From: a virus
Virus record (IMG/VR): IMGVR_UViG_3300005095_000026
Span: 1-39,804 of that record
DNA length: 39,804 nt
Reading direction: 5' to 3' (one strand)
This document shows, piece after piece, positions 8,864-32,578 of the stretch (positions are counted from its first letter, which is position 1; each line of letters begins with the position of its first letter). A program made the translations under genes and the position numbers. The notes beneath the pieces are model-generated. The model worked only from the letters and a program-made list of their open reading frames with translations, ran no database searches and was not told the origin of the DNA.

Positions 8864-8907
8864 ATTGTTGATTGTGTTGAAATAATATTGCAGATATCAC
8901 ACATACT

Positions 8908-8928
8908 GCCCTGAAACAAGGGCTTTTT
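8908..8928 (+). terminator. Rho-independent terminator beside attP
   Basis: A GCCCT/AGGGC stem (8908-8912 with 8919-8923) is followed by five Ts on the plus strand. It is just outside the tRNA-like attP core and would stop rightward transcription toward the integrase. Confidence 0.5.
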
Positions 8929-8931
8929 GAG

Positions 8932-8976
8932 TGGTATCCTCGACAGGACTTGAACCTGTGACCTCTCGATTAGGAA
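8932..8976 (-). other. attP: attP core: 3' end of tRNA-Arg(CCU)
   Basis: On the minus strand these 45 bases read as the 3' part of a tRNA: anticodon loop TTCCTAA (anticodon CCU, arginine), 3' anticodon strand, variable loop, T arm ACAGG-TTCAAGT-CCTGT, acceptor strand CGAGGAT, discriminator A and CCA. The 5' half is missing and upstream bases do not pair, so this is not a working tRNA. It is the segment a phage carries to rebuild the tRNA after integration, and it lies just downstream of the integrase. Confidence 0.85.
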
Positions 8977-9059
8977 GGTGATGGTTTTTTTTATGCTTTG
9001 CAGGATCGCTGGGGGCTTGGCTTTGTCTCTGTATTTGTATGTGCGATTTTTGTGCATAA

Positions 9060-10166
9060 TTATTTCTCCTTGATTTTTGGTGTTTTTGTAAAAACTGACT
9101 TGATTATATTGTTTGCGACTGCTGTTTTTGACTGTTGTTCTAGGTCTCCGATGTAGAGTTTATAGAACTTGAGCGTGGTGTCTGTGTCCGCATGTCCCAT
9201 CATTCTGCTTACCCAAGTTATATCCATCCCTTTCGATATGAGGATCGAGGCGAACATGTGCCTTGTTACTTGTAGGCTTTTATACTTTATGTTAAGCTGC
9301 TCAAGTATGGGCTTAAAATGATACTTGTTTATGTTTTTGCTAGATGTAAAAGGTTTGTTTTGCCTGTTTGGAAAAACATAGATCTCGCTTGGACATAGTA
9401 GTTTCCACTCCAAAAGAGCAGCTTTTGCCAGGTCCAGCATTGGGATCGTTTTGTATTTTTTAGTTTTATTTTGGAAAATCTTAAATTTTCCATTTTTAAA
9501 GTCTATAGAGTCCCATGATAGTGCTCGGACTTCTCCTGTTCTAAGCCCTGTCATGAGGCTGACTATGAAGTAGACTTTGAACCAGCCTCTTGATGCTTCT
9601 AAAATAGTCTCGATCTCCTCTATTGAATAAGGTTCTTTTCTTTTTGGGGCTGGGGGTTTTATCTGCCTTAGTTTTTCAAAAGGATTATAGGTGATGATAT
9701 CATCATATACTGCTTCTTGCAGTATCCTTTTAAAGGTATTTGTTACACGCCTGACTTTGTCTCTTGAGTGACCTTTGTCCAAAAGTGTGGACTGCCAGTA
9801 TCTCAAGTCTGAGTGAGATATATCTTTTATATCGCTAAATTCAAAAAACGGAATGATAAATCTTTCCAAATAAGATAGTATCTCTTTTTTTGAACTTAAG
9901 TGGGAGGTCGTTTCTATCAAGATCGATCTTGCATAATCACCAAAAATAGTTTTTTTAACTTGCTTGTTGACAATAAGATGCAAAAGAACATCTATCGCAT
10001 GGTCTTCTATGTAAGCGATATTTTTATCGGTCGCTTCTAAATTTGTAGATCTGCGATAGTATGAGATATTGCTTTTTAGTTCTATCTGCCCTGCTCTCTC
10101 AAGCATCTTTTTTGATGCACAGACATAGATGTAGCCATCTCTTATGTAGTAGTGTTTTTTAGCCAT
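9060..10166 (-). CDS. int: Tyrosine-type site-specific integrase
   Basis: The 368-residue recombinase would insert the phage at a host tRNA-Arg gene through the adjacent attP. The C-terminal catalytic domain (about 175-345) shows the first arginine in GLRTGEV (R209), the second arginine in VTRHMFAS (R302), H325 in MMGHADT and the tyrosine nucleophile Y335 in TLKFYKLY. The usual box-II HxxR histidine is replaced by Q (QVTR). The N-terminal 175 residues carry arm-type and core-binding regions. Starts at ATG 10166, overlapping the HTH gene by eight bases. Confidence 0.93.
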   Translation of the reverse strand: MAKKHYYIRDGYIYVCASKKMLERAGQIELKSNISYYRRSTNLEATDKNIAYIEDHAIDVLLHLIVNKQVKKTIFGDYARSILIETTSHLSSKKEILSYLERFIIPFFEFSDIKDISHSDLRYWQSTLLDKGHSRDKVRRVTNTFKRILQEAVYDDIITYNPFEKLRQIKPPAPKRKEPYSIEEIETILEASRGWFKVYFIVSLMTGLRTGEVRALSWDSIDFKNGKFKIFQNKTKKYKTIPMLDLAKAALLEWKLLCPSEIYVFPNRQNKPFTSSKNINKYHFKPILEQLNIKYKSLQVTRHMFASILISKGMDITWVSRMMGHADTDTTLKFYKLYIGDLEQQSKTAVANNIIKSVFTKTPKIKEK

Positions 10167-10568: not shown

Positions 10569-10601
10569 TCGCTATCGCTCCGCACTACAAAAACACAGAG
10601 G
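10569..10601 (-). repeat. VR-flanking block shared by both targets (VP2 copy)
   Basis: These 33 bases are identical to 23803-23835 beside VP1 and absent next to the TR. They encode the last residues and stop of both targets plus 17-18 bases beyond. This is where the initiation-of-mutagenic-homing signal of DGR targets is expected, together with the GC-rich end of the VR. No convincing hairpin is visible. Confidence 0.75.
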
Positions 10602-11373
10602 CACGACCGCCCACATTGTTGCTAGAGTTACTGCGGGCATAGTCCAGAGCAAGAGAGAACCCACCAGCGAGCGAACTGTAGTACCAAAAACCGCCGACTA
10701 GACAAGTGAGATATTTTCCCATAAATGAGCTACCATATATTTTCAAACTTGTAAGCTTCTCTAAGTTCGTATCTTTATAATTTGAAAAATCGTATGCTGA
10801 CTTGCTTGATAGCGTTGTCAGATCTATTTTCTTTTTTAGCTTTTTTATACTTTTCCCATCATGCGTGTATCCCAAAGCAACTTCCCAAAAATTTTTTTTA
10901 AAAAATACCCCATTTTTTTTGCCATTGTGAGAATTAATTTTTCTCTTTTTGTGTTTTTTGGATATAGCAGATAGCATACTATAAATCTTTACTGTTGTTA
11001 GGAAAAAGTCGCTTCCTATGCTTTTAGGGGCATCTATCATATCTGCGAAACGATTATCAATGCAACCATATATATTTGTAACTGGATTTGTGTCAGAGTC
11101 TGTTGTTGCAGGATCGAGATCTCTTTTTGAGACAAATACACCATTTTCATTTGCTCCTGGATATTTTGCTACAAATACAGCGTTTACTTCTTTTTTTGCA
11201 TTTAAAAAAACATTTTTGTATTTTTTAGTTTTAGGGAAACACACATATATACTCCCCAAATTATCTATATAATTTCCATAGTTGTCATGATCTTTTTCGT
11301 ATGTCCCCTCTTGTGTCTTTAAATAATCAGGAAGAAATTCCTCTTCAATAGTGCCTATTCCGTCTTTTGCCAT
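10585..11373 (-). CDS. Second DGR target, variable protein VP2 (C-type-lectin fold)
   Basis: The 262-residue protein is a compact paralogue of VP1: shared DHDNYGNYI (about 28-36), SIGSDFF (118-124), a FWEVA remnant of the FGE-type motif (162-166) and the same C-terminal variable repeat (about 223-258) ending NVGGRASVFL. Compared with VP1 it lacks the first 125 or so residues and a mid-domain cysteine-rich segment of about 45 residues, and that region is lysine-rich. DGR variable proteins use a C-type-lectin-like fold to display randomised residues. Starts at ATG 11373 with AAGGAGG. It lies in the early/integration block, 12.7 kb from the RT, so a virion role is not obvious. Confidence 0.88.
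   Translation of the reverse strand: MAKDGIGTIEEEFLPDYLKTQEGTYEKDHDNYGNYIDNLGSIYVCFPKTKKYKNVFLNAKKEVNAVFVAKYPGANENGVFVSKRDLDPATTDSDTNPVTNIYGCIDNRFADMIDAPKSIGSDFFLTTVKIYSMLSAISKKHKKRKINSHNGKKNGVFFKKNFWEVALGYTHDGKSIKKLKKKIDLTTLSSKSAYDFSNYKDTNLEKLTSLKIYGSSFMGKYLTCLVGGFWYYSSLAGGFSLALDYARSNSSNNVGGRASVFL
10602..10707 (-). repeat. Variable repeat VR2 (remote DGR target)
   Basis: 106 bp aligned without gaps to the TR at 23282-23387. There are 13 differences, every one at a T of the plus strand, that is an adenine of the coding-strand template. This is the signature of adenine-specific mutagenic retrohoming. VR2 and VR1 differ from each other as well, so they were diversified independently. Confidence 0.93.
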
Positions 11374-13440: not shown

Positions 13441-13474
13441 AATTCCCCTTAAAAGATACTTAATTGTGGGAATT
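13441..13474. promoter_or_regulatory. CI/Cro operator, right-hand type (between cro and cI)
   Basis: AATTCCCCTTAA (13441-13452) faces an imperfect copy TTAATTGTGGGAATT (13460-13474). About 50 bp around it, including an adjoining ATGGTAATA, recur inverted at 15173-15225 upstream of the rightward operon. Two matching operators controlling two early promoters fit a lambda-like immunity system. Confidence 0.6.
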
Positions 13475-13526
13475 TTATTCTCTTAATTTTAGATACCATG
13501 CTTTCTATCATGGAGGAGTTAGTGTC

Positions 13527-14237
13527 ATGGATTGCATAGATTATAAAAAACTTGATACTCTTATTGCCGACAAATACACTAGTAATAAGGATTTTATGGG
13601 CGTATTAAACAGTTTAGGCACACTAATAAAAGAAGATGCTATTAAAAAATGGAGGCAAGGGAATAGTGTTCCAAAATCAAACGATTTGCCAAATATTGCA
13701 AAAGCTTTAGATGTAAGTGTTTTAGACCTGTACTGTGACCCTACCTCGCAGAAGGAAAAAATAATCACAGAAGCCATCAAGAATCCATCTATAAAAATAA
13801 AAAACTACCTGATCGAAGCAGGTTATGGAAGCGACAGGATTAAAGAGGTGGATCTTCTTGACGGCTACGGATCAGAGCCGGAAGATGAGTTTGAGGATAG
13901 GATAAGAACTTTTTTTATAGACAAGTATATAGTTGACAAAAAGTACAGAGACAAAAAGATATCTGCACTTGTTATAACGAGCGACAGTATGACTCCTTAT
14001 GTTTATATTGGAGATATAGTTCTTTTTGCTACATTAGGAAGTGGTGCAAATCTAAGTGACGGAAAGTATATAATTGACACTATAGATGGCAAGAAGCTGC
14101 ACAATCTAAAGTTTCATCTTGACGGAAGCGTCACGGTTTCCAGTGAAAATGAAAAATACAGAGCAGAGAGAGTTTCAAGAGCAAGTGAGAACTTTTCCAT
14201 AATCGGTCGCGTGATCGGCAGGATACTCAAAAGCTAA
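13527..14237 (+). CDS. cI: CI-like phage repressor (HTH plus S24/LexA-type peptidase)
   Basis: I place the start at ATG 13527, which follows GGAGG, rather than the upstream frame; this gives 236 residues. Residues about 5-70 form an HTH domain. The C-terminal S24 domain has the nucleophile in TSDSMTPYVYIGD (S154) and the lysine in DGKKLHNLKF (about K190). An AG pair at 98-99 could be the autocleavage site used in RecA-dependent induction. It should hold lysogeny by binding the operators at 13441 and 15183. Confidence 0.9.
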   Translation: MDCIDYKKLDTLIADKYTSNKDFMGVLNSLGTLIKEDAIKKWRQGNSVPKSNDLPNIAKALDVSVLDLYCDPTSQKEKIITEAIKNPSIKIKNYLIEAGYGSDRIKEVDLLDGYGSEPEDEFEDRIRTFFIDKYIVDKKYRDKKISALVITSDSMTPYVYIGDIVLFATLGSGANLSDGKYIIDTIDGKKLHNLKFHLDGSVTVSSENEKYRAERVSRASENFSIIGRVIGRILKS

Positions 14238-14393: not shown

Positions 14394-14428
14394 AGCTCCA
14401 TGCCTTATAGGTGTGGGGCTTTTTTTTT
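14394..14428 (+). terminator. Strong intrinsic terminator after cI
   Basis: AGCTCCATGCC (14394-14404) pairs with GGTGTGGGGCT (14410-14420) over 11 bp with some G-U pairs, followed by nine Ts. Confidence 0.85.
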
Positions 14429-14650: not shown

Positions 14651-15082
14651 TTAGTCCTGCTTATTGTAGCACATGATGCCATCATGTTCTATATTGTTGT
14701 ATTGCAGTACCATGCTGTAGCATTTTTCACTTGTTTTCTCTTTCAGGGCTATAACAGCATTTTTGTCGGCTACGCTATCATGCATGGTTAGAGTGTTGCC
14801 ATCCTCGGACACACCATAGATAGAGTTATCTGTTATTGCCATGTCGCTATCCATTGATACAAAATACCCATCAGAGCCAAAAATCACATAAACTATATTC
14901 CCACCATAAATAGTCATGGCCCAAATGGGATTAGTAACTTTTTTATCTCCTAAAAGTACATCACTACCATAATATCCAAGACTATTACTTTGTTTTTGTG
15001 CATTTACTCCTGGTGTCCCTCCTCCTGATGACCCACAGCCCAAAAAAAACAGAACTATTAAAAATAAAGCTATTTTTTTCAT
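14651..15082 (-). CDS. Small lipoprotein, probable lysogenic-conversion moron
   Basis: The 143-residue protein starts MKKIALFLIVLFFLGC, a signal peptide with lipobox FLGC (Cys16), then a glycine/serine linker and a beta-rich domain with two later cysteines. It is on the strand opposite to cI and the accessory operon, and a TATAAT box is present upstream near 15118-15123. Exported lipoproteins beside the repressor are often made in lysogens, for example for superinfection exclusion. That role is inferred only. Confidence 0.65.
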   Translation of the reverse strand: MKKIALFLIVLFFLGCGSSGGGTPGVNAQKQSNSLGYYGSDVLLGDKKVTNPIWAMTIYGGNIVYVIFGSDGYFVSMDSDMAITDNSIYGVSEDGNTLTMHDSVADKNAVIALKEKTSEKCYSMVLQYNNIEHDGIMCYNKQD

Positions 15083-15424: not shown

Positions 15425-15772
15425 ATGATCGACACACACATGAGAGCTACAAGAAGTTTGACGGCTTCTGAACTAAAAAAGGTGCATTTTGACAATGCAG
15501 ACGCAGATGACAGAGCTATAGCAGAGAGCTACAAAGAACAAAACAACCCTGATATCATCATGACACATCAGGAGGCTATTGAAGCGGTGCATTCGCTAAA
15601 CTACATAGTAAAAAGCCTTGACAGGCAGGTAAAAGAGCTTGAGGCAGATAAGAGAGCACAGAGTGAGGTTATCTTATACCTCCAGGGTGAACTGGACAAG
15701 AAAACAAAAAAGATAAACGACAAAGCACTAAAAGCAGCTGCTACCCTACTCCTTAGAGAAAAGGCTGCATGA
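15425..15772 (+). CDS. Hypothetical coiled-coil protein
   Basis: The 115-residue protein starts at ATG 15425 with AAAAAGGAC upstream. Residues about 45-100 form a heptad-rich coiled coil. Its stop overlaps the next start (ATGATGG). No family recognised. Early-operon position suggests a host-takeover or regulatory role. Confidence 0.65.
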   Translation: MIDTHMRATRSLTASELKKVHFDNADADDRAIAESYKEQNNPDIIMTHQEAIEAVHSLNYIVKSLDRQVKELEADKRAQSEVILYLQGELDKKTKKINDKALKAAATLLLREKAA

Positions 15773-16173
15773 TGGGTGCGATAAGTTATACAGCAAAGCC
15801 AAAAAGAGTCAAAAAAGAGCTTCCTGAAGGCTACAAACGAAAAAATCCATGCAAATACAACAGAACAGCAGATGAGTCAAATGTACTCACCAGAAAAAGT
15901 GTCGAGTGGAGAGTAGTCAAAAAACATATCGAAGGCACTCCCCTCTCAGAGCTTGAAAAAGATGAAGATTTTAAACAGTATGTAGAAGAGATATATGAAT
16001 ATCTTGAGTACGGAAACGACAATCCAAACGAAAGTGATATCCACTTAAGAAAACAGATTTGCATCAAAAGAGCAAGAGACAATATAGTTAGAAAAAGTAA
16101 GCATGGCTTCTTCCAAGTTTCGACACATATCCCTGCTAAAAAGTTTGCAGATATAGACCAAAAAAGAAGCTAA
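15769..16173 (+). CDS. Hypothetical basic protein
   Basis: The 134-residue protein has a lysine-rich N terminus, an acidic stretch around 75-100 and a basic C terminus. No membrane segment or recognised domain. It overlaps the preceding gene and ends 55 bases before the TTGGAC repeat array, so it could be the protein that binds the array; that is a guess from position. Confidence 0.6.
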   Translation: MMGAISYTAKPKRVKKELPEGYKRKNPCKYNRTADESNVLTRKSVEWRVVKKHIEGTPLSELEKDEDFKQYVEEIYEYLEYGNDNPNESDIHLRKQICIKRARDNIVRKSKHGFFQVSTHIPAKKFADIDQKRS

Positions 16174-16228
16174 AAGATATAGCCATGGATATGATAAAAA
16201 AAGAGGCAAAAAAGAGTTAAAAAAGTTG

Positions 16229-16333
16229 TTGGACGGTTTTATTGGACAGTTGTTGGACACTCTATTGGACAGCTAGCTGTCCAATAAGCCGTCCAATAGA
16301 AAATCGTCCAATAGAAAACAGCTTATTGGACGG
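16229..16333. repeat. Eight-copy TTGGAC iteron-like array
   Basis: TTGGAC(A/G)-type sites occur at 16229, 16242, 16253 and 16265 (plus), then at 16277, 16289 and 16304 (inverted), then at 16326 (plus). Spacing is mostly 11-13 bp, about one helical turn. The centre is the perfect 20-bp palindrome TTGGACAGCTAGCTGTCCAA (16265-16284). The 192-base gap has no gene. Such arrays are bound cooperatively by replication initiators, partition proteins or repressors. Confidence 0.85.
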
Positions 16334-16365
16334 TATGAAAAAGAGGAAGAAAAACGAGGAAAAAA

Positions 16366-17616
16366 ATGGATAATAATTTTAAAAACTTTTTAAACAAAGT
16401 TGTTGCCAAAAGTGACCGTCTGGATATGGTCGTAAAAAGCTCCGGTTATGGCTTCAGTTTTTGGGCTGGGTTGGTGAGTATCATCGTCAGCTTTGTCATG
16501 GTCATAGCATCTTTAGTCGGTATATATCTAGCTTCAAATGTTGCGATAGGGGAGAGCGTAACAGTTGCGGGTATCACTTTTTCATCTTTTTTGATAAAAA
16601 GTGCGATCGTTGCTGTTTTTATAGCTATATATATAGCATTTGAGTTTCTAAAAACTTTTGCTTTTAGAGCTTTTATAAGTTCTCTTACTTTTAACGGTGC
16701 GTTTTTGATAGGTTCTATCATGATGCTAAGCATAGGATATGCGGCCCACAAAGGATATAACATCCTGGACCTGGAAGAGTTTACGATAAACACTCTCATC
16801 GGAGGAGGGCTGATACTATTTGTCATCTCAAATCTTATAGCTATAGCAACAAAAGAGAAGTCGATAGAGTGGTATGTCATAGCTGGTATAGTAGCGGTCA
16901 TAGCAGTCACAGGAGCGACTATCATGGCAAATATGCGAACTATAGACATAGTTGACAAATATGAGACGCAGAGGTTTAAAGAAAACCTTGAGAAAAACAG
17001 CTATGTAGTTGAGAGCAAAGAGGATAAAAGTGTAGCTTTGGGGCTTATAGACTCTGTAAAACAGGATATAAAAGACACTAAGCAGTACATAAAAGACAAA
17101 AAAACAGAGATCGCAGAGCTGAAAGCTGAAAACAAAAAGAGGATGAAGTATATAAAGACAAAAGTCTTTGTTGACAGAGAAAAAGCCCTAAAAGAGCAGT
17201 CCTGGAAGTTTAGAACGAGGCTAAAAGGTCTTCAAGGCGATCTGGCACGGCTGCAAAACGATCTTAGCTCACTATCTGCAAAGAGGCAGGAGAGCTACAA
17301 AGAGTTTGAAAAATCCAAACACGACCTGCTAAACACCAAAAAAGAGGTCGAAAGCAACTTTAACAACACTAGAGTCAAGACTATCCAAAAAGCCTCTGTT
17401 ATAGCCATCTGGGGAGAGGTTATATGTAGCTTTTTTATAGCTCTAAGCACGATAGTGCATGTTCTAAATCCAAACATAAAAGGAGCGGTCAAGATACAAA
17501 AAGGCATAGGCAAACACAGTGACAACGATATAGATATAAAAGATGTGAGAAAGCAACACCAAAAAAGCAAAACACAAAATCTTGAAAAACTGCTAAAGGA
17601 AGAGCAGGGAAAGTAA
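16366..17616 (+). CDS. Polytopic membrane/coiled-coil protein with -1 frameshift signal at its end
   Basis: The 416-residue protein starts at ATG 16366 after GAGG. It has four hydrophobic segments in the first 190 residues, a long coiled coil (about 220-330), another hydrophobic segment near 345-365 and a charged tail. No family recognised. The last codons read CAG GGA AAG TAA, so the heptamer GGGAAAG (17607-17613) sits in the correct frame directly before the stop and is followed after six bases by a GC stem-loop. A -1 slip would add the 17688-17915 frame, giving 516 residues. Possible roles include exclusion of other phages or envelope remodelling; none is shown. Confidence 0.8.
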   Translation: MDNNFKNFLNKVVAKSDRLDMVVKSSGYGFSFWAGLVSIIVSFVMVIASLVGIYLASNVAIGESVTVAGITFSSFLIKSAIVAVFIAIYIAFEFLKTFAFRAFISSLTFNGAFLIGSIMMLSIGYAAHKGYNILDLEEFTINTLIGGGLILFVISNLIAIATKEKSIEWYVIAGIVAVIAVTGATIMANMRTIDIVDKYETQRFKENLEKNSYVVESKEDKSVALGLIDSVKQDIKDTKQYIKDKKTEIAELKAENKKRMKYIKTKVFVDREKALKEQSWKFRTRLKGLQGDLARLQNDLSSLSAKRQESYKEFEKSKHDLLNTKKEVESNFNNTRVKTIQKASVIAIWGEVICSFFIALSTIVHVLNPNIKGAVKIQKGIGKHSDNDIDIKDVRKQHQKSKTQNLEKLLKEEQGK

Positions 17617-17640
17617 AACCCCCTGCAACGGCAACAGGGG
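17607..17640 (+). promoter_or_regulatory. Programmed -1 frameshift element
   Basis: Slippery heptamer G-GGA-AAG (17607-17613), stop codon TAA (17614-17616), six-base spacer, then stem CCCCTG/CAGGGG (17620-17625 with 17635-17640) with a 9-base loop. A second CAGGGG at 17641-17646 could pair instead. The heptamer is the one used by lambda G-T. Confidence 0.7.
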
Positions 17641-17687
17641 CAGGGGAGAAGCAAAGGTTAAAAAAAGATACCCCAAGCTTCGAGACG

Positions 17688-17915
17688 ATGAAAAACATCA
17701 TCCTCAAGATGAAGTACAGAGAGTATGAAAAAGACGGCAAAGTCTACAGGTTGCAGCCCAAAAGAGACGAGATCCTAAGAGAGCTGCAAAAAAACGGTTT
17801 GGATGTCGCCCCATGGTGGCTGACGAAGTACAACACTTCCAAGGTCGCCAACCTGGAGCTGATAGCTAAAAATATAGGTTATGCGTATAGAGAATTTACG
17901 AAGGAGAGAATATGA
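17688..17915 (+). CDS. Small basic protein, probably the frameshift extension of the membrane protein
   Basis: The 75-residue frame from ATG 17688 lacks a Shine-Dalgarno site. The same frame is open upstream back past the slippery site, encoding a Pro/Ala/Thr/Gly linker (KPPATATGAGEK) that would join it to the preceding protein. The domain is basic and helical with a tryptophan pair (APWWLTKYN). It may be made mainly or only as a fusion. Its stop overlaps the next ATG. Confidence 0.6.
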   Translation: MKNIILKMKYREYEKDGKVYRLQPKRDEILRELQKNGLDVAPWWLTKYNTSKVANLELIAKNIGYAYREFTKERI

Positions 17916-18070
17916 AGTATATATTTGGAACAGTTCTGTTTGCAGTGGCTCTGTTTACACTGGTATTTGCGGTGCATATATCGTTAAGTTATGGGAAGAT
18001 AGTAAATTATGAGACTTTAAAAAGCGGTGAGATGTATGATCATGAAGCTGTCAGGCAGTTGGGAGGGTAA
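17912..18070 (+). CDS. 52-residue single-helix membrane protein
   Basis: ATG 17912 overlaps the previous TGA and follows AAGGAGAG. One N-terminal hydrophobic helix (about 3-25) is followed by a short soluble tail. No family recognised. Confidence 0.6.
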   Translation: MKYIFGTVLFAVALFTLVFAVHISLSYGKIVNYETLKSGEMYDHEAVRQLGG

Positions 18071-18071
18071 C

Positions 18072-18305
18072 ATGAGCACAGCGATCACAATACTAGCCAT
18101 ACTGCTTTTTGTGCTGGTTGTCGCTTATTTTGCAGTTGATATCTATATTGGTCGCAAGATGTACAGACGAAAAAAGCCTGGCAGGCAGGCAAAAGCGAGA
18201 AAAAAAAGAGAAGAGGTGCTTAATTTTGAGGGTGACACCATCCTCGAAATGCCAAGCGGTTTTAAAGTTATGCCGGATGGGCAGATAGTTTTAATGGAGA
18301 TGTAA
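18072..18305 (+). CDS. 77-residue single-helix membrane protein
   Basis: I choose ATG 18072, which has GGGAGGG upstream and starts one base after the previous stop, over a longer frame starting at 18027. An N-terminal membrane helix (about 4-24) is followed by a strongly basic stretch (RKMYRRKKPGRQAKARKKRE) and an acidic end. The topology predicts the basic part in the cytoplasm. Function unknown. Confidence 0.65.
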   Translation: MSTAITILAILLFVLVVAYFAVDIYIGRKMYRRKKPGRQAKARKKREEVLNFEGDTILEMPSGFKVMPDGQIVLMEM

Positions 18306-18309
18306 AAAG

Positions 18310-18699
18310 ATGAAATTTGGACAAGAATTAATTGTAAAAAAAGAACTTAAATATAATGATATTGTCTCTTTTGAGAAGGGAGATATTTTAAAAGTAGTGG
18401 AGTATCAGGCTGGAAGCGGAATGCTATTAAAACATGAAGGATTATATGGCTTTATGGATTTTTTTTGGGGACACGGAGAAAGAGATAAAAAAATAAATGA
18501 ATTCTTTGAAATTGTGAATAATGTTTGTATTTGGACAGCAGAAGAAGAAGATTTGGTAGATTTTGGTGAAAATTCGTACTATACAAGTTGTGGTAATGAT
18601 TTTCTACTACTAGAAGGGACTCCAAGTGACAATAATATGAAGTACTGTTGCTATTGTGGAGATAAAATAGAGGAAAGCAGAGAGAACAACAGGAACTAA
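18310..18699 (+). CDS. Hypothetical protein with C-terminal zinc-ribbon-like motif
   Basis: The 129-residue protein starts at ATG 18310. The N-terminal part resembles a small beta-barrel; the C terminus carries YCCYCGDKIEE, a CxxCG knuckle seen at the end of many small phage proteins. It is the last gene of the rightward operon. Function unknown. Confidence 0.6.
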   Translation: MKFGQELIVKKELKYNDIVSFEKGDILKVVEYQAGSGMLLKHEGLYGFMDFFWGHGERDKKINEFFEIVNNVCIWTAEEEDLVDFGENSYYTSCGNDFLLLEGTPSDNNMKYCCYCGDKIEESRENNRN

Positions 18700-21655: not shown

Positions 21656-22206
21656 AAAATTTCCTTTATCTCGTCAATGGTGCTGTTTTTGTCGATGTTT
21701 TTTGCTTTTTGCAAAAACTGTTCTATATCTATGCCTTTTTTTATCATATTCTCAAGTTTGCTTCGTATCTCGTTTAACAATATGACATAATCAGCTGCTA
21801 CAGATTTAGCCTGTTCGTTTGCGTTTATGATCGCTTCGTTTGTAGCTGTGTCATATTTCCCCTGTTTTGCAAATTGATACATATACTCATAGATCTCATT
21901 TTGCACATCTATGTACTTATCAGTCAAACTTTGCTTGTCCGCGAGCATCTCTTTTAGCCCTTCTGCTTTTTCTACAAAAAGAGTTTGAAGCTTTGACATT
22001 TCGTATTTAAACTGATCGCTCTCTTTTATAAGCTCTGTAAATTCATCTGCGGTTATCTCTTTACCATTTTTTTGCAGTGCTAAAAGTGCATAAAACTCCT
22101 CGTTTGAAGCATTGCAAACTACTGCTGCACCTGTGCTGTATTCTTTTGTAAAAGGCTCTTCAAACTGCTTGTTTAAAAACCCTGTAAAACTTATATAGCG
22201 ATACAT
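21652..22206 (-). CDS. Hypothetical helical protein coupled to the DGR reverse transcriptase
   Basis: The 184-residue protein starts at ATG 22206 inside the end of the RT gene (16-base overlap) with AAGGAAG upstream. The last two thirds form long helices (about 60-175). No family recognised. It could be a tail-fibre chaperone for the variable protein or an extra DGR component; only the coupling supports this. Confidence 0.6.
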   Translation of the reverse strand: MYRYISFTGFLNKQFEEPFTKEYSTGAAVVCNASNEEFYALLALQKNGKEITADEFTELIKESDQFKYEMSKLQTLFVEKAEGLKEMLADKQSLTDKYIDVQNEIYEYMYQFAKQGKYDTATNEAIINANEQAKSVAADYVILLNEIRSKLENMIKKGIDIEQFLQKAKNIDKNSTIDEIKEIF

Positions 22207-23420
22207 AAATCTTCCTTTTTTAATATATTTTGATAGTGTGGTATAGTTGCTGTATTTTTAGCATGTTCCAAAAGAGAAGTTATGGACTCTCTATTTTTTA
22301 ATTTAACTGCTTTTTTAAACTTATACATGGAGTGTTTTCTAACAAATTTTTTACTCTTCCATGTGCGATATCCGACAAAATTTATACCACGCTTGATCTT
22401 TGCTATAGTCCAATGTGAAAGTTCTAAATTTAATCTTTCTTTTATGAGCTTTTCTAAGGTGTCTTTGTGTTTTTTTGCTTCGTTTAGTGTTAAGCCGATA
22501 AGTATAAAATCATCGACATATCTCACATAGGAGTTCACTTTCAGCACTCTTTTAACAAAGTGGTCAGTTTCATTCATGTAGATAGAAGCGTAAATTTGGC
22601 TTAAAAGATTTCCTATCGGTATGCCTGTGTCTCCATCCATCTTAGCAAATTCACACATTAATTCTACAAACTTTTCATCTTTGATCTTTTTCTTAAAAAG
22701 TCCTCTTAAAATATCTCTATCTATGCTGTAAAAATACTTTTTTATGTCAAGTTTTAGATAGTAAAGCTCTCCGCTGTACTTTCTCATCTCTTTTTGAGTA
22801 TATCTACTGGCTTTATGTGTACCTTTGCCTTTTCTACAAGCATATGCATGATCAATGAAACTTTTGTCAAATATTTCATAAATTTCTTTATAGATAGCGT
22901 GTTGCACTACCAGGTCTCTAAAATGAGGAGCATTAATGACTCTTTTTTTAGGTTCATATACTTCAAATTGTCGATAAGGTTTAGGTTTGTAAGTACCATC
23001 TTTTAATTCGTCATGCAAGTCTGCTAAATTTTGCCCTAAATTTATCTCAAACTCGTAAGTGTGCGGCTTTTTTCTTTTGCCTTTTCGTGCTATCAGATAC
23101 GCTTTGTGAAGATTTTCTAATGTAAAAGTTTTATTATATAAATTTCCAACTCTTTTGGAGGTGCTTTGATTTTTGACATTGCTACTCAAAAAAGCACCTT
23201 GATTGATTTCGCTTATCGCAGGACAGCATATCCCTCTATTGCCAGTATTATCATTTGATATTTCAGGATTGGCTATACAGTCACGACCGCCCACATTGTT
23301 GTTAGAGTTACTGCGGTTATTGTTCAGATTAAGAGTGAACCCACCAGCGATCGAACTGTTGTTCCAATTACCGCCGACTAGACAAGTATGCATGTCAATA
23401 TACTGCCCTTGATTTCTCAC
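22191..23420 (-). CDS. DGR reverse transcriptase
   Basis: Copies TR RNA into adenine-mutagenised cDNA that replaces the VRs. RT motifs are clear: LKLDIKKYFYSID (catalytic Asp about 225), the DGR-typical IPIGNLLSQIYAS (about 267-279) and YVDDF (about 301-305). Start choice is unusual. GTG 23420 has AAAGGGG five bases upstream and overlaps the avd stop (GTGA), but translation from it runs in frame through the TR, giving 409 residues. TTG 23189 with AAGGTG seven bases upstream gives the 332 residues usual for the family. A TTG at 23447 has no ribosome site. The family's RTs normally start after the TR. Confidence 0.93.
   Translation of the reverse strand: MRNQGQYIDMHTCLVGGNWNNSSIAGGFTLNLNNNRSNSNNNVGGRDCIANPEISNDNTGNRGICCPAISEINQGAFLSSNVKNQSTSKRVGNLYNKTFTLENLHKAYLIARKGKRKKPHTYEFEINLGQNLADLHDELKDGTYKPKPYRQFEVYEPKKRVINAPHFRDLVVQHAIYKEIYEIFDKSFIDHAYACRKGKGTHKASRYTQKEMRKYSGELYYLKLDIKKYFYSIDRDILRGLFKKKIKDEKFVELMCEFAKMDGDTGIPIGNLLSQIYASIYMNETDHFVKRVLKVNSYVRYVDDFILIGLTLNEAKKHKDTLEKLIKERLNLELSHWTIAKIKRGINFVGYRTWKSKKFVRKHSMYKFKKAVKLKNRESITSLLEHAKNTATIPHYQNILKKEDLCIAI
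23282..23387 (-). repeat. DGR template repeat (TR)
   Basis: 106 bp between avd and the RT catalytic region, near-identical to the ends of VP1 and VP2. It holds 28 adenines on the coding strand, many in AAC and AAT codons; 20 of the 28 differ in at least one VR. It lacks the conserved block that follows each VR, diverging right after GGGCGGTCGTG. It is in the same reading phase as the RT frame. Confidence 0.95.
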
Positions 23421-23803
23421 ATTTTCCCCTTTATCTTTTGAATCCAAGAGCCAATCATTCGACCGATTTCATCAACGAGTTTAGAGATAGCGAGATATCT
23501 GTGTTTAGGCTTTACAGTTGCATCGGTCTTGCCGTTTTTGTATGCAAAATACCCAAGTTCATTTGCGAGATACAGCTGCATACGCAACTTCTCATGCGAA
23601 ATATCAAGATCGCTCAATGTTGTTTTTTTATAGTATTTTTTATGACATTCAGTTATTAAATCATAAACATGATACGCATTTTGTCGTATCTGCAACGCCA
23701 AAGCATACTTTTCGTGCTTTGGAAAATGGTTTAAATATATATTTAATAATTTTATCATTTCCATGTACTTCCTATTAAGAATCACTTCGTGCTTCTGTGC
23801 CAT
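23417..23803 (-). CDS. avd: DGR accessory variability determinant (Avd)
   Basis: The 128-residue basic, all-helical protein fits the Avd four-helix bundle that forms a pentamer, binds RT and TR RNA and is needed for mutagenic retrotransposition. It lies in the standard position between the VR-bearing gene and TR/RT. ATG 23803 follows the VP1 stop by 15 bases, and its GGAG ribosome site lies within the block shared with the remote VR2. Its stop overlaps the possible GTG start of the RT frame. Confidence 0.85.
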   Translation of the reverse strand: MAQKHEVILNRKYMEMIKLLNIYLNHFPKHEKYALALQIRQNAYHVYDLITECHKKYYKKTTLSDLDISHEKLRMQLYLANELGYFAYKNGKTDATVKPKHRYLAISKLVDEIGRMIGSWIQKIKGKM

Positions 23804-23835
23804 CGCTATCGCTCCGCACTACAAAAACACAGAGG
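23803..23835 (-). repeat. VR-flanking block shared by both targets (VP1 copy)
   Basis: 33 bases identical to 10569-10601: last codons and stop of VP1, then the avd ribosome-binding region. Absent beside the TR, as expected for a target-only homing signal. Confidence 0.75.
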
Positions 23836-25327
23836 CACGACCGCCCACAGTGTGGCCAGAGTTACCGCGGGAATTGTACAGATAAAGAGTGAACCCACCA
23901 GCGAGCGAACCGCTGCTCCAATTACCGCCGACTAGACAAGTCATATCTGTTCTTAAATATCTGTAAATACCATCATTCCCAAATTCTGTAGTACCGCCGC
24001 TGCTCACGCCAGTTGCTGCAGGAATAGATAAAGCAGTTCTTTTGTAGCTTATAGAGTTTTTATCGTTACTAAATTCAAAAACTTGATTTGCTCCATTCCC
24101 TAATCTTATCCAACCATTGTTGTCACTAACCAGGTCAGATATGTCGATATCATCATAGTTGTTGTAGTCGTAAGCACTATCTTCTGTTAAAGTTGCTATA
24201 TCTACAGACTCTTTTAATATTTTGAAATTTGAGCTGTCTCTGGTAAAGCCGCTTGCGACTTCCCACATGTTTCCATTCAGATCAGCGACTCCACAGTTTT
24301 GACCATTATGTGTTGTTTTTGCAAAGTTTGTGGCTGACCCTGTTTTTCCACAATTACTGTATCCCGAAGCTTCGTAAACAACAGAGTTATCGTTTGTGTC
24401 TTTTAGTGCGTTGTTATTGCAGCCTTTTGGTAAGTATGGTGCGACATCTTTAAAAGCACATGTTGCAATCGTTCCTGCGTCCGCATGTGCTTTCGCTAAC
24501 CGCATCAGCATCGAGTAAACAAAGATCGGAGTTAAGAAAAAATCATTTCCTAAACTTTTCGCAGCGGTATATAATTCATCGTATCTATTCTCACTACATC
24601 CATTAATATTTGCGACTGGATTATGATCGGCGTGGGTAGAAACTGGATCTCTGCTTTTTATACTTGCGAAGTAACCGTTATTATTAGATCCTTGATATTT
24701 TGAAACAAATATTCCTGCTTTTTCCACTCCTCCATTAAGAAAAGCTCTTTCTATCACATAGCCATCTTTTTTATGAGTACTAATATAGTATGTATTTCCT
24801 ATAATTTTAAAATAATATTTAGGGATAAAAACAAATACGGATCCGGACATTGGATGGATATAATTGCCGTAGTTATCATGATCGACCTGATAAGTTCCTG
24901 CCATCGACACTAAATAACTAGGGAGATCATGCTCTGGGCAAATGCCTACTCCAAAGCCGATCTTTCCAGTTATCCCGATATCATAGTATTTGACACCTTG
25001 GATTTTTTCATCTATCTCGTCCATAGAATATGTTGCTTCTTCAGGGATAACTACACTCTCCATCACCTCTATCTTGTCATTTATCTCTATTAAAGCGTTA
25101 TTTGCAGCATTGTTAACGATGTCCGCGGCTGAAGAGACTTCATCTATGAGTGTATTCGCCTCTTCTTTGAAAATATTCAGCTTCGCTATAAAATCTACGA
25201 TATCTTGCACAAAAGTCGGTATCCATAGCATAAAGCTGTTTCTTTGCTGTAGCCATTCTGGGGTATCGCTTTTTGCATCAACTGGCGGCGGCGGAGTTAA
25301 GTTTTGATCTATATCTGATATTGCCAT
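23819..25327 (-). CDS. DGR variable protein VP1, tail receptor-binding protein
   Basis: The 502-residue protein carries an N-terminal tail-attachment region with helices (about 25-110), then a C-type-lectin domain of the formylglycine-generating-enzyme type with the signature DLNGNMWEVASGF (about 349-361), and ends in the variable repeat (about 463-498) with NTVGGRASVFL-like conserved edge. This is the design of the Bordetella phage Mtd and related proteins, where diversified residues form the ligand surface. It directly follows the tail gene 25328-26176 and begins the DGR cluster. Many cysteines in the middle may form disulfides or bind metal. Confidence 0.9.
   Translation of the reverse strand: MAISDIDQNLTPPPPVDAKSDTPEWLQQRNSFMLWIPTFVQDIVDFIAKLNIFKEEANTLIDEVSSAADIVNNAANNALIEINDKIEVMESVVIPEEATYSMDEIDEKIQGVKYYDIGITGKIGFGVGICPEHDLPSYLVSMAGTYQVDHDNYGNYIHPMSGSVFVFIPKYYFKIIGNTYYISTHKKDGYVIERAFLNGGVEKAGIFVSKYQGSNNNGYFASIKSRDPVSTHADHNPVANINGCSENRYDELYTAAKSLGNDFFLTPIFVYSMLMRLAKAHADAGTIATCAFKDVAPYLPKGCNNNALKDTNDNSVVYEASGYSNCGKTGSATNFAKTTHNGQNCGVADLNGNMWEVASGFTRDSSNFKILKESVDIATLTEDSAYDYNNYDDIDISDLVSDNNGWIRLGNGANQVFEFSNDKNSISYKRTALSIPAATGVSSGGTTEFGNDGIYRYLRTDMTCLVGGNWSSGSLAGGFTLYLYNSRGNSGHTVGGRASVFL
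23836..23941 (-). repeat. Variable repeat VR1 (local DGR target)
   Basis: 106 bp aligned without gaps to the TR with 13 differences, all at template adenines. The variable codons replace Asn by Ser, Tyr, Gly, His or Thr and Ile by Leu, while the GGFTL and VGGR framework is kept. Confidence 0.95.
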
Positions 25328-26176
25328 TTATTTTATTCCTTCTAATTCTAAATTTAATGTGCTTGATGTAAAGTCTTCATGTATCGATTCTGGATTTGTA
25401 GCTTTTGCACAAACTATCTCTCCACTCTCATATCCGAAAAAGTAGAAAGTGAACTTGTCACCTATCCTTGCTATCTCGTCAACTTCTGCTATGCGAAGGT
25501 TGGAGTCTATATCTAAAGACATACTTACATCTTCAACTACTTTTTTTGTTCCGTATGGATCTTTTACTAAGCGAGAAGATACTTTTGTGCCATATTTCTC
25601 ACAACCTAGCGTTGTTCTCATTCCGATTCCTAAGTTCCCCACTTTTGCGATCGAGCCAGGATTTTTTATCTTTATCTTTATCTTGCTGCTGACTGCTATA
25701 GGGACATAAATAACTTCCTTTGTCGCATAAGACAAAGGATTGAACCAGTAATCGATCCAGTCATCGCCGTTTACAGTTACCAAGCCGCTTGTTTTAGTCT
25801 CGATAACGGCATCATTTTCATCTAACAACTCTACAACGATCTCTGTTGCTTCCAAGTTCGCAAAAGCGATCGTATCAACAGACGGAGCAGATATAGTGTA
25901 GGTTATTTCGTTGTTTGCATAACTTTGTGTAAAAAAGTGCGGATCAAAGGCAGCAAGTGTATTGACTGTTCCTTCCAGCTTCCAAAAGAGTGGATATGTA
26001 AGAGGTGTGTTTCCTGTATTTTCATTAACGCGAGAGATGTATATCTGAGTATCGCTTATAACTCTGTCGTTTTTTGCGTAAGTTGTGGATATATTAAATA
26101 TAGGGTAGGCTTCATCTGTTAGATTTGTTTCTGTTACTGTCGCAACTGTAGGTCTTAGGTACATTACTTCACTCAT
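25328..26176 (-). CDS. Distal tail/tail-tip protein
   Basis: The 282-residue protein lies between tape measure and VP1. Near the N terminus (about 25-70) is a small beta module with PIFNISTTYAKNDRVIS and a later FWKLEG, resembling carbohydrate-binding modules of the chitin-binding type common in tail proteins; the rest is beta-rich. It overlaps the tape measure stop by four bases. Likely links tail tip to VP1. No gpL, gpK, gpI or gpJ equivalent is visible. Confidence 0.65.
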   Translation of the reverse strand: MSEVMYLRPTVATVTETNLTDEAYPIFNISTTYAKNDRVISDTQIYISRVNENTGNTPLTYPLFWKLEGTVNTLAAFDPHFFTQSYANNEITYTISAPSVDTIAFANLEATEIVVELLDENDAVIETKTSGLVTVNGDDWIDYWFNPLSYATKEVIYVPIAVSSKIKIKIKNPGSIAKVGNLGIGMRTTLGCEKYGTKVSSRLVKDPYGTKKVVEDVSMSLDIDSNLRIAEVDEIARIGDKFTFYFFGYESGEIVCAKATNPESIHEDFTSSTLNLELEGIK

Positions 26177-29100: not shown

Positions 29101-31665
29101 GCCGAACCCTATCCCACTCTTTTCTAATGTCTTTGTAGTCGTTCCAAATAAAGAGTCCAAAAAACCATCAACAAATCCACTTAAACCACCTTTTATACCA
29201 CCTGCGTCATAAGATATAAGTTCGCCATCTTTAAAGATATCATGCGAGGTTGATTGATTTAAGTCGAAGTTTGCTCCTGTATAGTCAAAACCGACAGATG
29301 TTGATATAGCAACTGCAACTGCACCAAACTGACTTTCCATGTTTTCTAAAGAGCGTGTCATCTTTTGAAAATACGGAAGCTCATTGTTTACAGTGCTGTC
29401 GAGCATAGATAAAGAGTCTGCTATACCAGTATTGTCTGCATCAATATTTACATCCATTTGTTGAAAATCATTTCTAGTCTCAGTGTTCATAGCTGAGTAG
29501 ATATCTGCCGCGAGAGAGAGCATAGGATATTCTGTTCTTATAGCCCCTCCAATGTTGTCATCAAACTGTTTGCGAGAAGCTTCGCGAAGTGTTATGTCGC
29601 CTTCACCGTTAATGTAGTCGCTTAAAGCCCCTCTGATAGCCTGTCCAAAAACATTGCCGAACTTAGACCCCATAGATTCGTAACTCTTTTCAGCTTCTTT
29701 CCCAACAATAGAGTCCTGAAAAGAACTTCCGAAGCTCTTACCAGCTTGTTCTGCATACTTTTGTGACTGCTGTGGGGTTATATACGCACCTTGTTTGCCA
29801 CAATTTCCACCGACACAGCCACCACCAGAGTTCCCTATGCCTCCGCTTAAAAAATCTGCTTTAGCTTTTGCATTTTTCTCTAATGATTTTCCGTAATTTT
29901 TCCAAACACTCTCTTGTGTCTTTTTCTCTTTTTCTGCATACTGCTCATTTATCTTTGCAAGTTCAGCGTTGTACCAGGTCGCCACCTGCAGTTTATCTTG
30001 GTTATGTGCTATATACTCGTCTCTTTGCTTGTCAAGAGACCTGATAGCATACTCTTGTTGTGTTAGAGTCGCTTGGTTGAAATCGTTTGTAAATCTTTCG
30101 TTCCATCTCTCTTGCTCGTTAAAAGTTTTTGTTGCAGCTTTTGCGGCTTTGTTGTGTTCTTTTGTTAAAGTTTTTAGAAGATCTATATCTTTTTTGAGCG
30201 GTGTACCCCAAATGCTTTCTTTATTTTTTGGTTTTTCAGGCATCTTGAGATCAAGGATCCCTTTTGCGGTCTTTTGAGCATAGTTTGTAGATATAGCGAC
30301 TGCTTTCATTTTTGCGTCTATTTCGTCAAGAGAGTGTATATTCTTGCCAAGGGATGAAAACTCTTTTGATAAATCTCCGACTTTGATTTTCGCTTGTAGC
30401 ATTGCGATAGAGGATTTATTTCCAAAAGAAGTAGCCTTTGCTGCCAACTCTTTATAGTTGCCTCCGATTTTACCAAAAGAGACAGTATTTGCCAACTCTG
30501 CCAAAGCAGCTGCTGCTTGATATGCTTTTTGTTGTAGAGCTGCGATAGCAGACAAGGCGTAGCCTGTTATGGTTGCAGAGAACATCTGAATACCTACACT
30601 CGCCATCTGCACCATCGTTGCAAAATTCTCCATCGCCATTGATACACCCTGCATCAGTCCTGTTAGATGTGCCGTAAGTGAGATGGAGTTATCACTCTCT
30701 TGATTAAAGCCCTGAAAAGGTGGTATAAGAGCAGAAACAACTGTTGATCCAAGAGTCCAAAGGCTCTCTCCTAGCGTGAAAGCGGCTGTACCGACACTTT
30801 TCATCACCTCCCAGACATTTGGAAAAACTGCATAAGCCGCCTCTAAGAAAGATTTTAGACTATGAACCCATGAGTTACTATCTTTTTGCAGCTCTTCGGT
30901 GTAGTTTATGACGAGATTGGCAGCATCATTATAAACCGCTGTCGAAAACTCAAGCCATCCTGATTCGGCAACTGCTACATTTGTGTAGCCTTGTTGAACC
31001 TGATCCAGTCTCGCCTGTGCATCATTGTAAGCTGCTGAAACCTGTGCAAAATGCTCATTTATCGCTATCCCTGCTCTTTGTGCTTCATCCCCGTAAGCCT
31101 GTAAGGCATCTGCTCCAAGATTTGCCATTCTTACCACATCAGAAGCTGATTTGCTAAATAGATCTTGAGCTATCGCTGTTTTTTGTATGCCGTCTGGCAT
31201 CTCGTCAAGTTTTTGCAACAACACATTCATCGCTTTTTCGGTCGTATCCATCTGTGTTCTTGCAAACTCTTGAGTTATACCTAGCTCTTCAAAAGCTTTT
31301 TTAGCAGCTCCAGATCCATCTCTTTGAAAGTTGTTTAGTCTTCTAGTAAGTGCTCCTAGCCCTGCATGAAGCTTAGAAGTAGAAACATCGGCAAAACCTG
31401 CCGCATATTCCCATTTTGAGAGAGCTTCGGTTGAGAGAGAGTATTTTTCGGCAGTTTTACCGATCTCGTCTGCTGCTTTGGCTGCTTCATCTGCCATTTC
31501 TGCGAGTTGCGATGCTCCTCTTATGGTGGCATACGCAGCTCCAACAGATGCGATCGCACCTTTTACGGAGAAAAGAGTGTTTTTCATGGTCTTGAGTTTT
31601 GATGTAAGATTATCGACATTTCTGTCGGTTGCATTTACATCTATGGTTACAGAAATCTTTTTCAA
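26173..31665 (-). CDS. Tail tape measure protein
   Basis: At 1830 residues this is the largest gene. Long helical stretches, hydrophobic segments (about 290-400) and low-complexity repeats are typical. Tape measure length sets tail length, at about 0.15 nm per residue in known siphophages, so a tail near 270 nm would be expected. A GGGCVGGNCGKQG cluster (about 615-628) is unusual. Starts at ATG 31665, overlapping the chaperone stop. Confidence 0.93.
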   Translation of the reverse strand: MKKISVTIDVNATDRNVDNLTSKLKTMKNTLFSVKGAIASVGAAYATIRGASQLAEMADEAAKAADEIGKTAEKYSLSTEALSKWEYAAGFADVSTSKLHAGLGALTRRLNNFQRDGSGAAKKAFEELGITQEFARTQMDTTEKAMNVLLQKLDEMPDGIQKTAIAQDLFSKSASDVVRMANLGADALQAYGDEAQRAGIAINEHFAQVSAAYNDAQARLDQVQQGYTNVAVAESGWLEFSTAVYNDAANLVINYTEELQKDSNSWVHSLKSFLEAAYAVFPNVWEVMKSVGTAAFTLGESLWTLGSTVVSALIPPFQGFNQESDNSISLTAHLTGLMQGVSMAMENFATMVQMASVGIQMFSATITGYALSAIAALQQKAYQAAAALAELANTVSFGKIGGNYKELAAKATSFGNKSSIAMLQAKIKVGDLSKEFSSLGKNIHSLDEIDAKMKAVAISTNYAQKTAKGILDLKMPEKPKNKESIWGTPLKKDIDLLKTLTKEHNKAAKAATKTFNEQERWNERFTNDFNQATLTQQEYAIRSLDKQRDEYIAHNQDKLQVATWYNAELAKINEQYAEKEKKTQESVWKNYGKSLEKNAKAKADFLSGGIGNSGGGCVGGNCGKQGAYITPQQSQKYAEQAGKSFGSSFQDSIVGKEAEKSYESMGSKFGNVFGQAIRGALSDYINGEGDITLREASRKQFDDNIGGAIRTEYPMLSLAADIYSAMNTETRNDFQQMDVNIDADNTGIADSLSMLDSTVNNELPYFQKMTRSLENMESQFGAVAVAISTSVGFDYTGANFDLNQSTSHDIFKDGELISYDAGGIKGGLSGFVDGFLDSLFGTTTKTLEKSGIGFGKQSAEDFMNGIVDGYQYQDIKIKKSSVFGLVKSTGYQTVKEDLDSDIEQKFADAIRTGYEVVSDSMESLGVNERDISDLQFDEVKLDFKDKSQDEINDLVTGAMTARLDDLTLAMFGGELKEYQSTGEDYTETILRISTGYQDAKYSLDRLGIATVNYTEVANKSAKDFGGEVAKSSIVLKEHDSGIGKYIETLEASTDAVVTAYTELHNLQTALQKTSSFAEFDAKMIEGAGSREALISGQSSLLENFYTLQEQNSIKQAQMNEELSTMGLILPATKDEWRELLESVTDPELYGRLISMSSDVEDAFKSMEDASADVVEQIMKQIEVQEDLLEAQKELDDLKNSMQEEYNDILEDTAKTLRDLARSSNSVKDSIYTTGLDDDESIHYYLDQLNSKEQEFASFFDSNGALLPDKYDEMQSVYAEINSISSSLTNSLEDYDRSDYLKENIYDLLSVNQAIVDSNAKVMEVQIAGGTLDGVLGGLSINEFSTLVGLSEEQKAQLITVASQTVGLAQEATLTTRYAGQAISVDQSNFVAPYSTVGVSNMIPSVETGLMKDNTFEAAPTTVSVGNITAAQTDVSTLMKDGTFVAPYDTVTANNPYFAGMAKDNTVNSLYKGADIAITNPALLGSVKLSDLLGSSSSGLTGILNLTDEQKQKIAALEAKAAEESSAQTYYNKASTYFDAVLADIARKAEADTRNLSAASFGATSTLGTQEDIDFQTVLGNAGLTFDATQRANLYDEMKGFATQTDDLSYLKTLLGYNDATGTVSNIDELTAIKALQPYLPNDATSAYGNLKSINDSIKNEISTHLNSVNRAVEGEYDFGNGLEFFTGTQNSNYNQQLDAVADYLGVNIWYRDDGDGYYYRYLDGHADFTNIQSILQQKLNDLPQFKSGGFTGYGNPNDIAGITHKQEFVVPHKGALVLNKTGENKELKEIKEVLKETKKELEIMRSLLFKANQLQTKTRKVEIVEEEYIA

Positions 31666-31964
31666 CTACTCTTCTCCTTTTTAATATTATTTGCCCACGC
31701 AGTCGCCAGATCTGCAACAAGTGGTACAAATATACTTTTTCTGTATCCATGCCATTTGCACAGATCTTTTGTTGCTTCCCAATTTTTACCTCTTACTTGA
31801 CCATTATCAAAAAAATCATTTGGGATAGATAGGAAAAATATCCCAAAAGTAAAAAGCTCTTGACTTATATCTTTTAAAAAAACCACTTCGCTGAAAGTTT
31901 CAGCTTTTAGTTTTTTTATCTCTTCTAAAAAAGCTTCGTTTGTTAGCTTTTTTTGCTTTTTCAA
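31662..31964 (-). CDS. Tail assembly chaperone, frameshifted part (gpT-like)
   Basis: The listed 100-residue frame begins at a weak TTG, but the same frame is open back to the slippery site at 32042-32048, encoding EGKLELLRRWVAQQAKNNGE and onward. It is therefore best seen as the T extension of the preceding G-like gene, giving a 305-residue G-T fusion by a -1 shift. Such fusions wrap the tape measure during assembly. Confidence 0.8.
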   Translation of the reverse strand: MKKQKKLTNEAFLEEIKKLKAETFSEVVFLKDISQELFTFGIFFLSIPNDFFDNGQVRGKNWEATKDLCKWHGYRKSIFVPLVADLATAWANNIKKEKSS

Positions 31965-31987
31965 CTGTTTAAACTGCCTGTAAGCTT

Positions 31988-32578
31988 CTAACTCTCCGTT
32001 GTTTTTTGCTTGTTGAGCGACCCATCTTCTGAGTAGCTCAAGTTTCCCTCATCTTCTTTTTGCCATATTTTTATGATATTGTCATGCACTCCTCTCCAGC
32101 CAATCTCATCTGCAAATGCTTCAGCATCTTTATAGCTCTCTTCTTTTAGATAGACTTTTGAGTAGATCTCAAATATTTTTTCACTGTTTTCTATATCTTT
32201 TTCGACATCTATTTTAGGAACTGTCTTTTTTATCTCCTCTTTTTGACTAATAAGATCATCAAGCTTTACGACCGCATCATCAAAATCTTCATATACTTTT
32301 ATGAGCTTTTCTTCATGCTTGTCTGGGCTTTTCTCTAAAAGTTTTAATCTTTTTTCTAGTTTTTCGATCCTTTGTGTAGTTAATAGTATCTCGTCTTCGA
32401 CAGCTGCTAACCGTTTTTTTTCGGCAGTTGGTTCTATTATGAACTTTTTAGCTGCTTTTTGTGCTTGTTTTCTGCTTTTTTTGTCTCCTCTTGTGAGTTT
32501 TAAGGTATAGGTTTTTTCACCGCTTTTAAACGGTACCTCCAACTCACTTGTTAAGTCTTGTATCTTTGCTTTTTTCAT
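31988..32578 (-). CDS. Tail assembly chaperone (gpG-like)
   Basis: The 196-residue charged protein has a central coiled coil (about 60-125) and lies between tail tube and tape measure, the G position. ATG 32578 has GGAG upstream, in an 18-bp unit that is tandemly duplicated (GGAGAAAA occurs twice). The zero-frame end after EDEG is short and unrelated to the conserved-looking -1 continuation. Confidence 0.8.
   Translation of the reverse strand: MKKAKIQDLTSELEVPFKSGEKTYTLKLTRGDKKSRKQAQKAAKKFIIEPTAEKKRLAAVEDEILLTTQRIEKLEKRLKLLEKSPDKHEEKLIKVYEDFDDAVVKLDDLISQKEEIKKTVPKIDVEKDIENSEKIFEIYSKVYLKEESYKDAEAFADEIGWRGVHDNIIKIWQKEDEGNLSYSEDGSLNKQKTTES
32042..32048 (-). promoter_or_regulatory. Programmed -1 frameshift heptamer GGGAAAC
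   Basis: The codons GAG GGA AAC contain the canonical slippery heptamer G-GGA-AAC in frame. The -1 frame opens just upstream of it (after a TGA) and stays open to 31662. Confidence 0.8.

Follow-up and report, generated by a model that had tools for sequence, protein, structure and literature searches.

The proven cases of programmed −1 ribosomal frameshifting in phages are for the most part tail genes, with a handful of head genes, the others being in transposable elements; the G/GT site of lambda itself is the heptamer GGGAAAG. Here we describe the same heptamer at the end of a 416-codon open reading frame (ORF) in the virus record IMGVR_UViG_3300005095_000026 (39,804 bases, analysed at full length and referred to below as the window), where it probably belongs to a genuine −1 frameshift cassette. 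As in the G/GT genes of lambda and many long-tailed phages, the longer form would carry a C-terminal extension and the short form is expected in excess (PMC5009743), whereas the 416-codon gene is not beside the tape measure, is on the other strand from it and has a product predicted to cross the membrane several times. Bacterial dnaX-type cassettes share with this locus a Shine-Dalgarno (SD)-like 5′ element, a V_VVA_AAG heptamer and a 3′ stem-loop at short spacing, and in the reversed dnaX type, whose frameshift yields the long form, the 0-frame stop likewise comes right after the site (both PMC5009743). The protein is unrelated to DnaX, however, the heptamer is GGGAAAG here rather than AAAAAAG, and the SD-like element found here is not significant. 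The carboxysome protein CsoS2 (cso2) is a further bacterial frameshift with a 3′ stem-loop, in which a 5′ SD stimulator is not needed (PMC5009743), but again the protein is unrelated and the genomic setting is another. The elements of the locus are as follows.

16366..17616, plus strand: 0-frame ORF of 416 codons, an ORFan, ending CAG GGA AAG TAA
17586..17915, plus strand: −1 frame open from stop to stop, entered at 17607-17613, giving a 100-residue extension that begins VKPPATATGAG
17595..17600, plus strand: AAAGGA, SD-like, read from the sequence and perhaps a dnaX-type 5′ stimulator, ending 6 nucleotides (nt) before the heptamer
17607..17613, plus strand: slippery heptamer G_GGA_AAG in the phase of frame 0 (CA G/GGA/AAG/TAA)
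17614..17616, plus strand: 0-frame stop TAA, abutting the heptamer
17620..17646, plus strand: 3′ stem-loop of 7 bp (CCCCTGC/GCAGGGG), with a 6-nt spacer after the heptamer
17688..17915, plus strand: 75-codon ORF, starting where the −1 frame has its first ATG, without an SD sequence

The initial annotation had read a −1 frameshift signal into this site, and both elements that it named, an in-frame GGGAAAG immediately before the stop and a GC-rich stem-loop six bases beyond it, are present. The heptamer occurs twice on the plus strand of the window and only once in frame among the listed genes of both strands. Given the codon usage of the phage, the chance of finding exactly GGGAAAG within a 9-codon stretch is 0.00065, and that of any XXXYYYZ (Y being A or T) is 0.049. 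The motif G_GG.A_AA.G is one of the three most efficient in Escherichia coli when accompanied by stimulators (PMC4066793; also PMC5009743). Transcriptional slippage was considered as another means of changing frame and rejected, since the site has no long homopolymer.

The hairpin has a minimum free energy of −16.9 kcal/mol, and the 67-nt stretch folds to −20.3 kcal/mol (z = −2.35), a value equalled by none of 200 shuffles. An equally strong hairpin 4-9 nt downstream is found at 0.09% of positions, or about 1 in 1000, and a single one of 15,910 sampled stretches of 28 nt, taken from either strand, matches its strength. Expressed per nucleotide, its energy (16.9/27 = 0.63) exceeds the average of 0.452 ± 0.124 for the stimulators of the IS3 family (PMC4066793), with the reservation that the methods are not identical. 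A survey also covered the ends of 230 ORFs of at least 100 codons, from 145 kb of DNA of this phage and of other phages and plasmids; it looked for a slippery heptamer no more than 60 nt from the stop together with a −1 frame open for at least 40 codons. Eight ends had both, and only the site at 17607-17613 had in addition a hairpin below −7 kcal/mol.

The −1 frame was also predicted to be open through a linker into the 75-codon ORF, and this is the case. After the shift it reads through VKPPATATGAGEKQRLKKDTPSFET into that ORF, with the junction residues EEQGK/VKPPATATGAGEK, and the fusion would be 516 residues long. No ATG, GTG or TTG lies ahead of 17688 in this frame. The further claim that the 75-codon ORF has no ribosome site is right, because the anti-SD pairing upstream of it amounts to −1.8 kcal/mol, the fourth weakest of 52 genes, unlike the neighbours at 17912 and 18072, which have strong SD sequences; the start of the 416-codon ORF has a moderate one (−5.9 kcal/mol). 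Codon log-odds favour frame 0 up to where the 416-codon ORF ends, and switch to the −1 frame at 17598-17622, single 24-base windows being noisy. The linker from stop to ATG (24 codons, about 72 nt) scores 7.0 bits in the −1 frame. True coding segments of this phage score 7.5 ± 4.3, and segments that are open but out of frame −3.3 ± 4.9; the linker stands at the 45th percentile of the former, and 2.9% of the latter do as well.

A single-sequence AlphaFold model of 109 residues gives a compact alpha/beta domain, with a predicted local distance difference test score (pLDDT) of about 80 over much of the domain, and its first helix is predicted to begin three residues before Met 17688, which is weak evidence, coming from one sequence. 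No convincing fold match was found for this model in either Foldseek library (E ≥ 0.5), and the VIA comparison peaked at Z 4.8, with EF-hand proteins, entries of the winged-helix type, such as arginine repressor, reaching about 2.5; no fold is assigned. The 75-codon domain is basic, as the initial annotation had it (isoelectric point 9.7), but this does not set it apart, as the whole 416-residue protein is basic as well (9.5). The phase of the heptamer, the structure 6 nt downstream, which ranks in the top 0.1%, and the open, coding-like −1 frame are together consistent with a real −1 frameshift cassette.

Several observations weigh against a cassette of this kind. No homologues of the 416-residue protein or of the −1 extension were found in the viral_contigs, phages and plasmids collections, so that conservation of heptamer and stem cannot be shown; a search of genome_contigs gave no homologue of the 416-residue protein either, the plasmid search returned one chance coiled-coil match (E 0.2), and the neighbouring genes at 15425 and 15769 likewise yielded no relatives. 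The genome and viral scans required exact 8-residue matches, and distant relatives could therefore escape them. The slipperiness data come from E. coli, whereas the presumed host belongs to the Campylobacterota. The AAAGGA duplex (−5.7 kcal/mol) is matched by 9% of in-frame positions and alone is not significant, and when the linker is shuffled with its composition kept, about 45% of the shuffles have an open frame, of which 13% reach the score of the linker (about 6% overall). Finally, a competing hairpin, GCAGGG/CCCTGC (17604-17626, −10.6 kcal/mol), takes in the GGG of the heptamer. This hairpin and the 3′ stem-loop exclude each other, and where no ribosome is present the former would sequester that GGG.

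The source is moreover one virus record, which may carry an indel. The locus could be a single fused gene disrupted by one base, through an inactivating mutation or an error of sequencing or assembly, and the frame change would then not be programmed. The frame change does sit among short runs of G and A, and the linker and 75-codon ORF resemble a natural continuation of the protein; an accident would nevertheless leave unexplained why a heptamer of the top class stands in exact phase with an exceptional hairpin at the right spacing, and we consider this reading improbable, though the least improbable of those set beside frameshifting. Slightly less credit is due to the view that there are two separate genes, the 75-codon ORF being translated from the ATG at 17688 by reinitiation or from a weak start, with a coincidental heptamer and a hairpin that serves another role. 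That ORF has an ATG and overlaps the ATG of the next gene (17912) in normal operon style, and a few other genes of this phage are similarly weak in SD sequence. Its own pairing of −1.8 kcal/mol argues the other way, as does the gap of about 71 nt, which holds the strong hairpin and is coding-like in the same frame, and the first helix of the predicted domain appears to start upstream of Met 17688.

The hairpin might instead act in transcription, perhaps by terminating the converging late operon of the minus strand, and the heptamer would then lie next to it by chance. Read on the minus strand, GTTTTAC comes after the stem, and a scanner lists minus-strand terminator-like sites here, but the T-run is short, the end of the late operon (18796) is about 1.1 kb from the hairpin, and the phase of the heptamer, the open −1 frame and the coding-like codons of the linker would be left without explanation. 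This seems very unlikely. Programmed frameshifting, which would account for heptamer, hairpin and linker together, is the reading that we prefer.

The 416-residue protein was described as a multi-pass membrane protein of no recognised family, and this description stands. Hydropathy predicts six membrane segments (35-53, 74-92, 103-121, 143-161, 170-188 and 345-363), five of them N-terminal and one at 345-363, with a charged helical stretch of about 150 residues between (about 200-340). Neither this protein nor the extension has a convincing profile match in Pfam, NCBIfam or PADLOC (above the curated cut-off where there is one), and a weak match to PHROG 9415 (E 2e-4) is confined to the coiled-coil and transmembrane part. 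The structure model is poor (pLDDT 52.7) and was used for helical character only. The short loops agree with the positive-inside rule and an N-in start; with six segments, the long charged region would then lie outside and the C-terminus inside, but the orientation would be reversed if the one weak segment (103-121) were miscounted. As predicted, the product would sit in the inner membrane and contain a long region resembling a coiled coil. Proteins like p16.7 of phi29, which organise phage DNA at the membrane, likewise have a membrane anchor, a coiled coil and a separate C-terminal domain. The likeness is one of architecture; p16.7 has one membrane segment, as against six here, and is not known to involve a frameshift.

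Ribosomes reaching the end of the 416-codon ORF would meet G_GGA_AAG before the TAA, with the hairpin 6 nt ahead and the weak SD-like AAAGGA 6 nt behind. Some would slip back one base, pass the TAA and translate a flexible linker followed by the 75-codon domain, producing the 516-residue form, while the majority would stop and release the 416-residue form, leaving the longer one as the minor product. Both C-termini would be cytoplasmic and the coiled coil outside, and the 516-residue form would expose an additional compact, basic domain on the cytoplasmic side of the membrane. The likeliest use would be a membrane assembly in which a minority of subunits carries the extra domain, comparable to G and GT in tails. 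What such an assembly does is a guess: it could be superinfection exclusion, or the anchoring of phage DNA or of replication.

The remainder of the record bears on the setting of this gene. Most genes of the 39,804 bases are on the minus strand, the plus strand carrying a repressor gene (13464-14237; its product has an S24 peptidase domain and is a repressor by PHROG match) and the small operon at 15425-18699. The large terminase is of the GpA family, and its best named relative is in Sulfurimonas phage SNW-1 (46% identity), which makes a host among the Campylobacterota probable. The further features that matter here are these.

16229..16331, plus strand: TTGGAC present eight times within 103 bp, in either orientation about a palindrome centred at 16274/16275; the 416-codon ORF follows closely
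26173-31665, minus strand: tape-measure gene (by PHROGs)
31662..32578, minus strand: two genes in a G/GT-like position, immediately preceding the tape-measure gene, with GGGAAAC in frame at 32048-32042

The gene had been placed under CI-type control, a claim that we could not support, as a strong terminator-like hairpin with a T run (14394-14420) follows cI, a minus-strand gene comes after it, and the TTGGAC array precedes the ORF. The palindrome at the centre of the array reads ATTGGACAGCT/AGCTGTCCAAT. The array is a probable operator or iteron array; Rfam gave only chance microRNA matches, which fall on it. The gene just past the repressor gene (14651-15082, minus strand) encodes a small predicted lipoprotein. 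L004, a phage whose repressor is related, also has a small predicted lipoprotein gene just past the repressor gene and on the opposite strand (8870-9496, minus strand). A lambda-like Rex or superinfection-exclusion function was considered from the nearness to cI. In L004 and in L005, which also has a related cI, the plus strand after cI carries the recombination genes RecT, Sak and SSB, and by analogy the plus-strand operon may be an early operon, which is at least as likely as a Rex-like role.

As had been proposed, the site lies in a non-tail gene. The place of G/GT, between the major tail protein and the tape measure, is not that of the 416-codon ORF and is occupied on the minus strand by the pair at 32578-31662. 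There, GGGAAAC at 32048 is 58 nt before the stop of a 196-codon ORF, and past this stop the −1 frame is open for 107 codons and runs through the next ORF of 100 codons. Neither protein of the pair matches a tail-chaperone profile, and the pair is likely, from its place and layout, to be a classic G/GT frameshift. Because GGGAAAC has the usual position and layout of G/GT, this phage seems to use GGGAAA-type sites twice. Elsewhere on the minus strand there is a predicted diversity-generating retroelement, whose reverse transcriptase ORF (22191-23447) contains a template repeat towards its 5′ end; two target genes carry variable repeats, one at 23819-25327 and a more distant one at 10585-11373 (minus strand), and mismatches in the core repeat fall mainly at template A positions.

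We give about even chances to the fuller proposal, that a temperate phage frameshifts twice at GGGAAA-type sites, in its tail chaperone and in an unrelated membrane and coiled-coil protein encoded in the operon after cI, where the shift would set the share of subunits with the cytoplasmic basic domain. If this is true, the annotation of such operons overlooks the longer protein, and phages use a ratio-setting frameshift device beyond their tail genes, in an early or accessory membrane protein.
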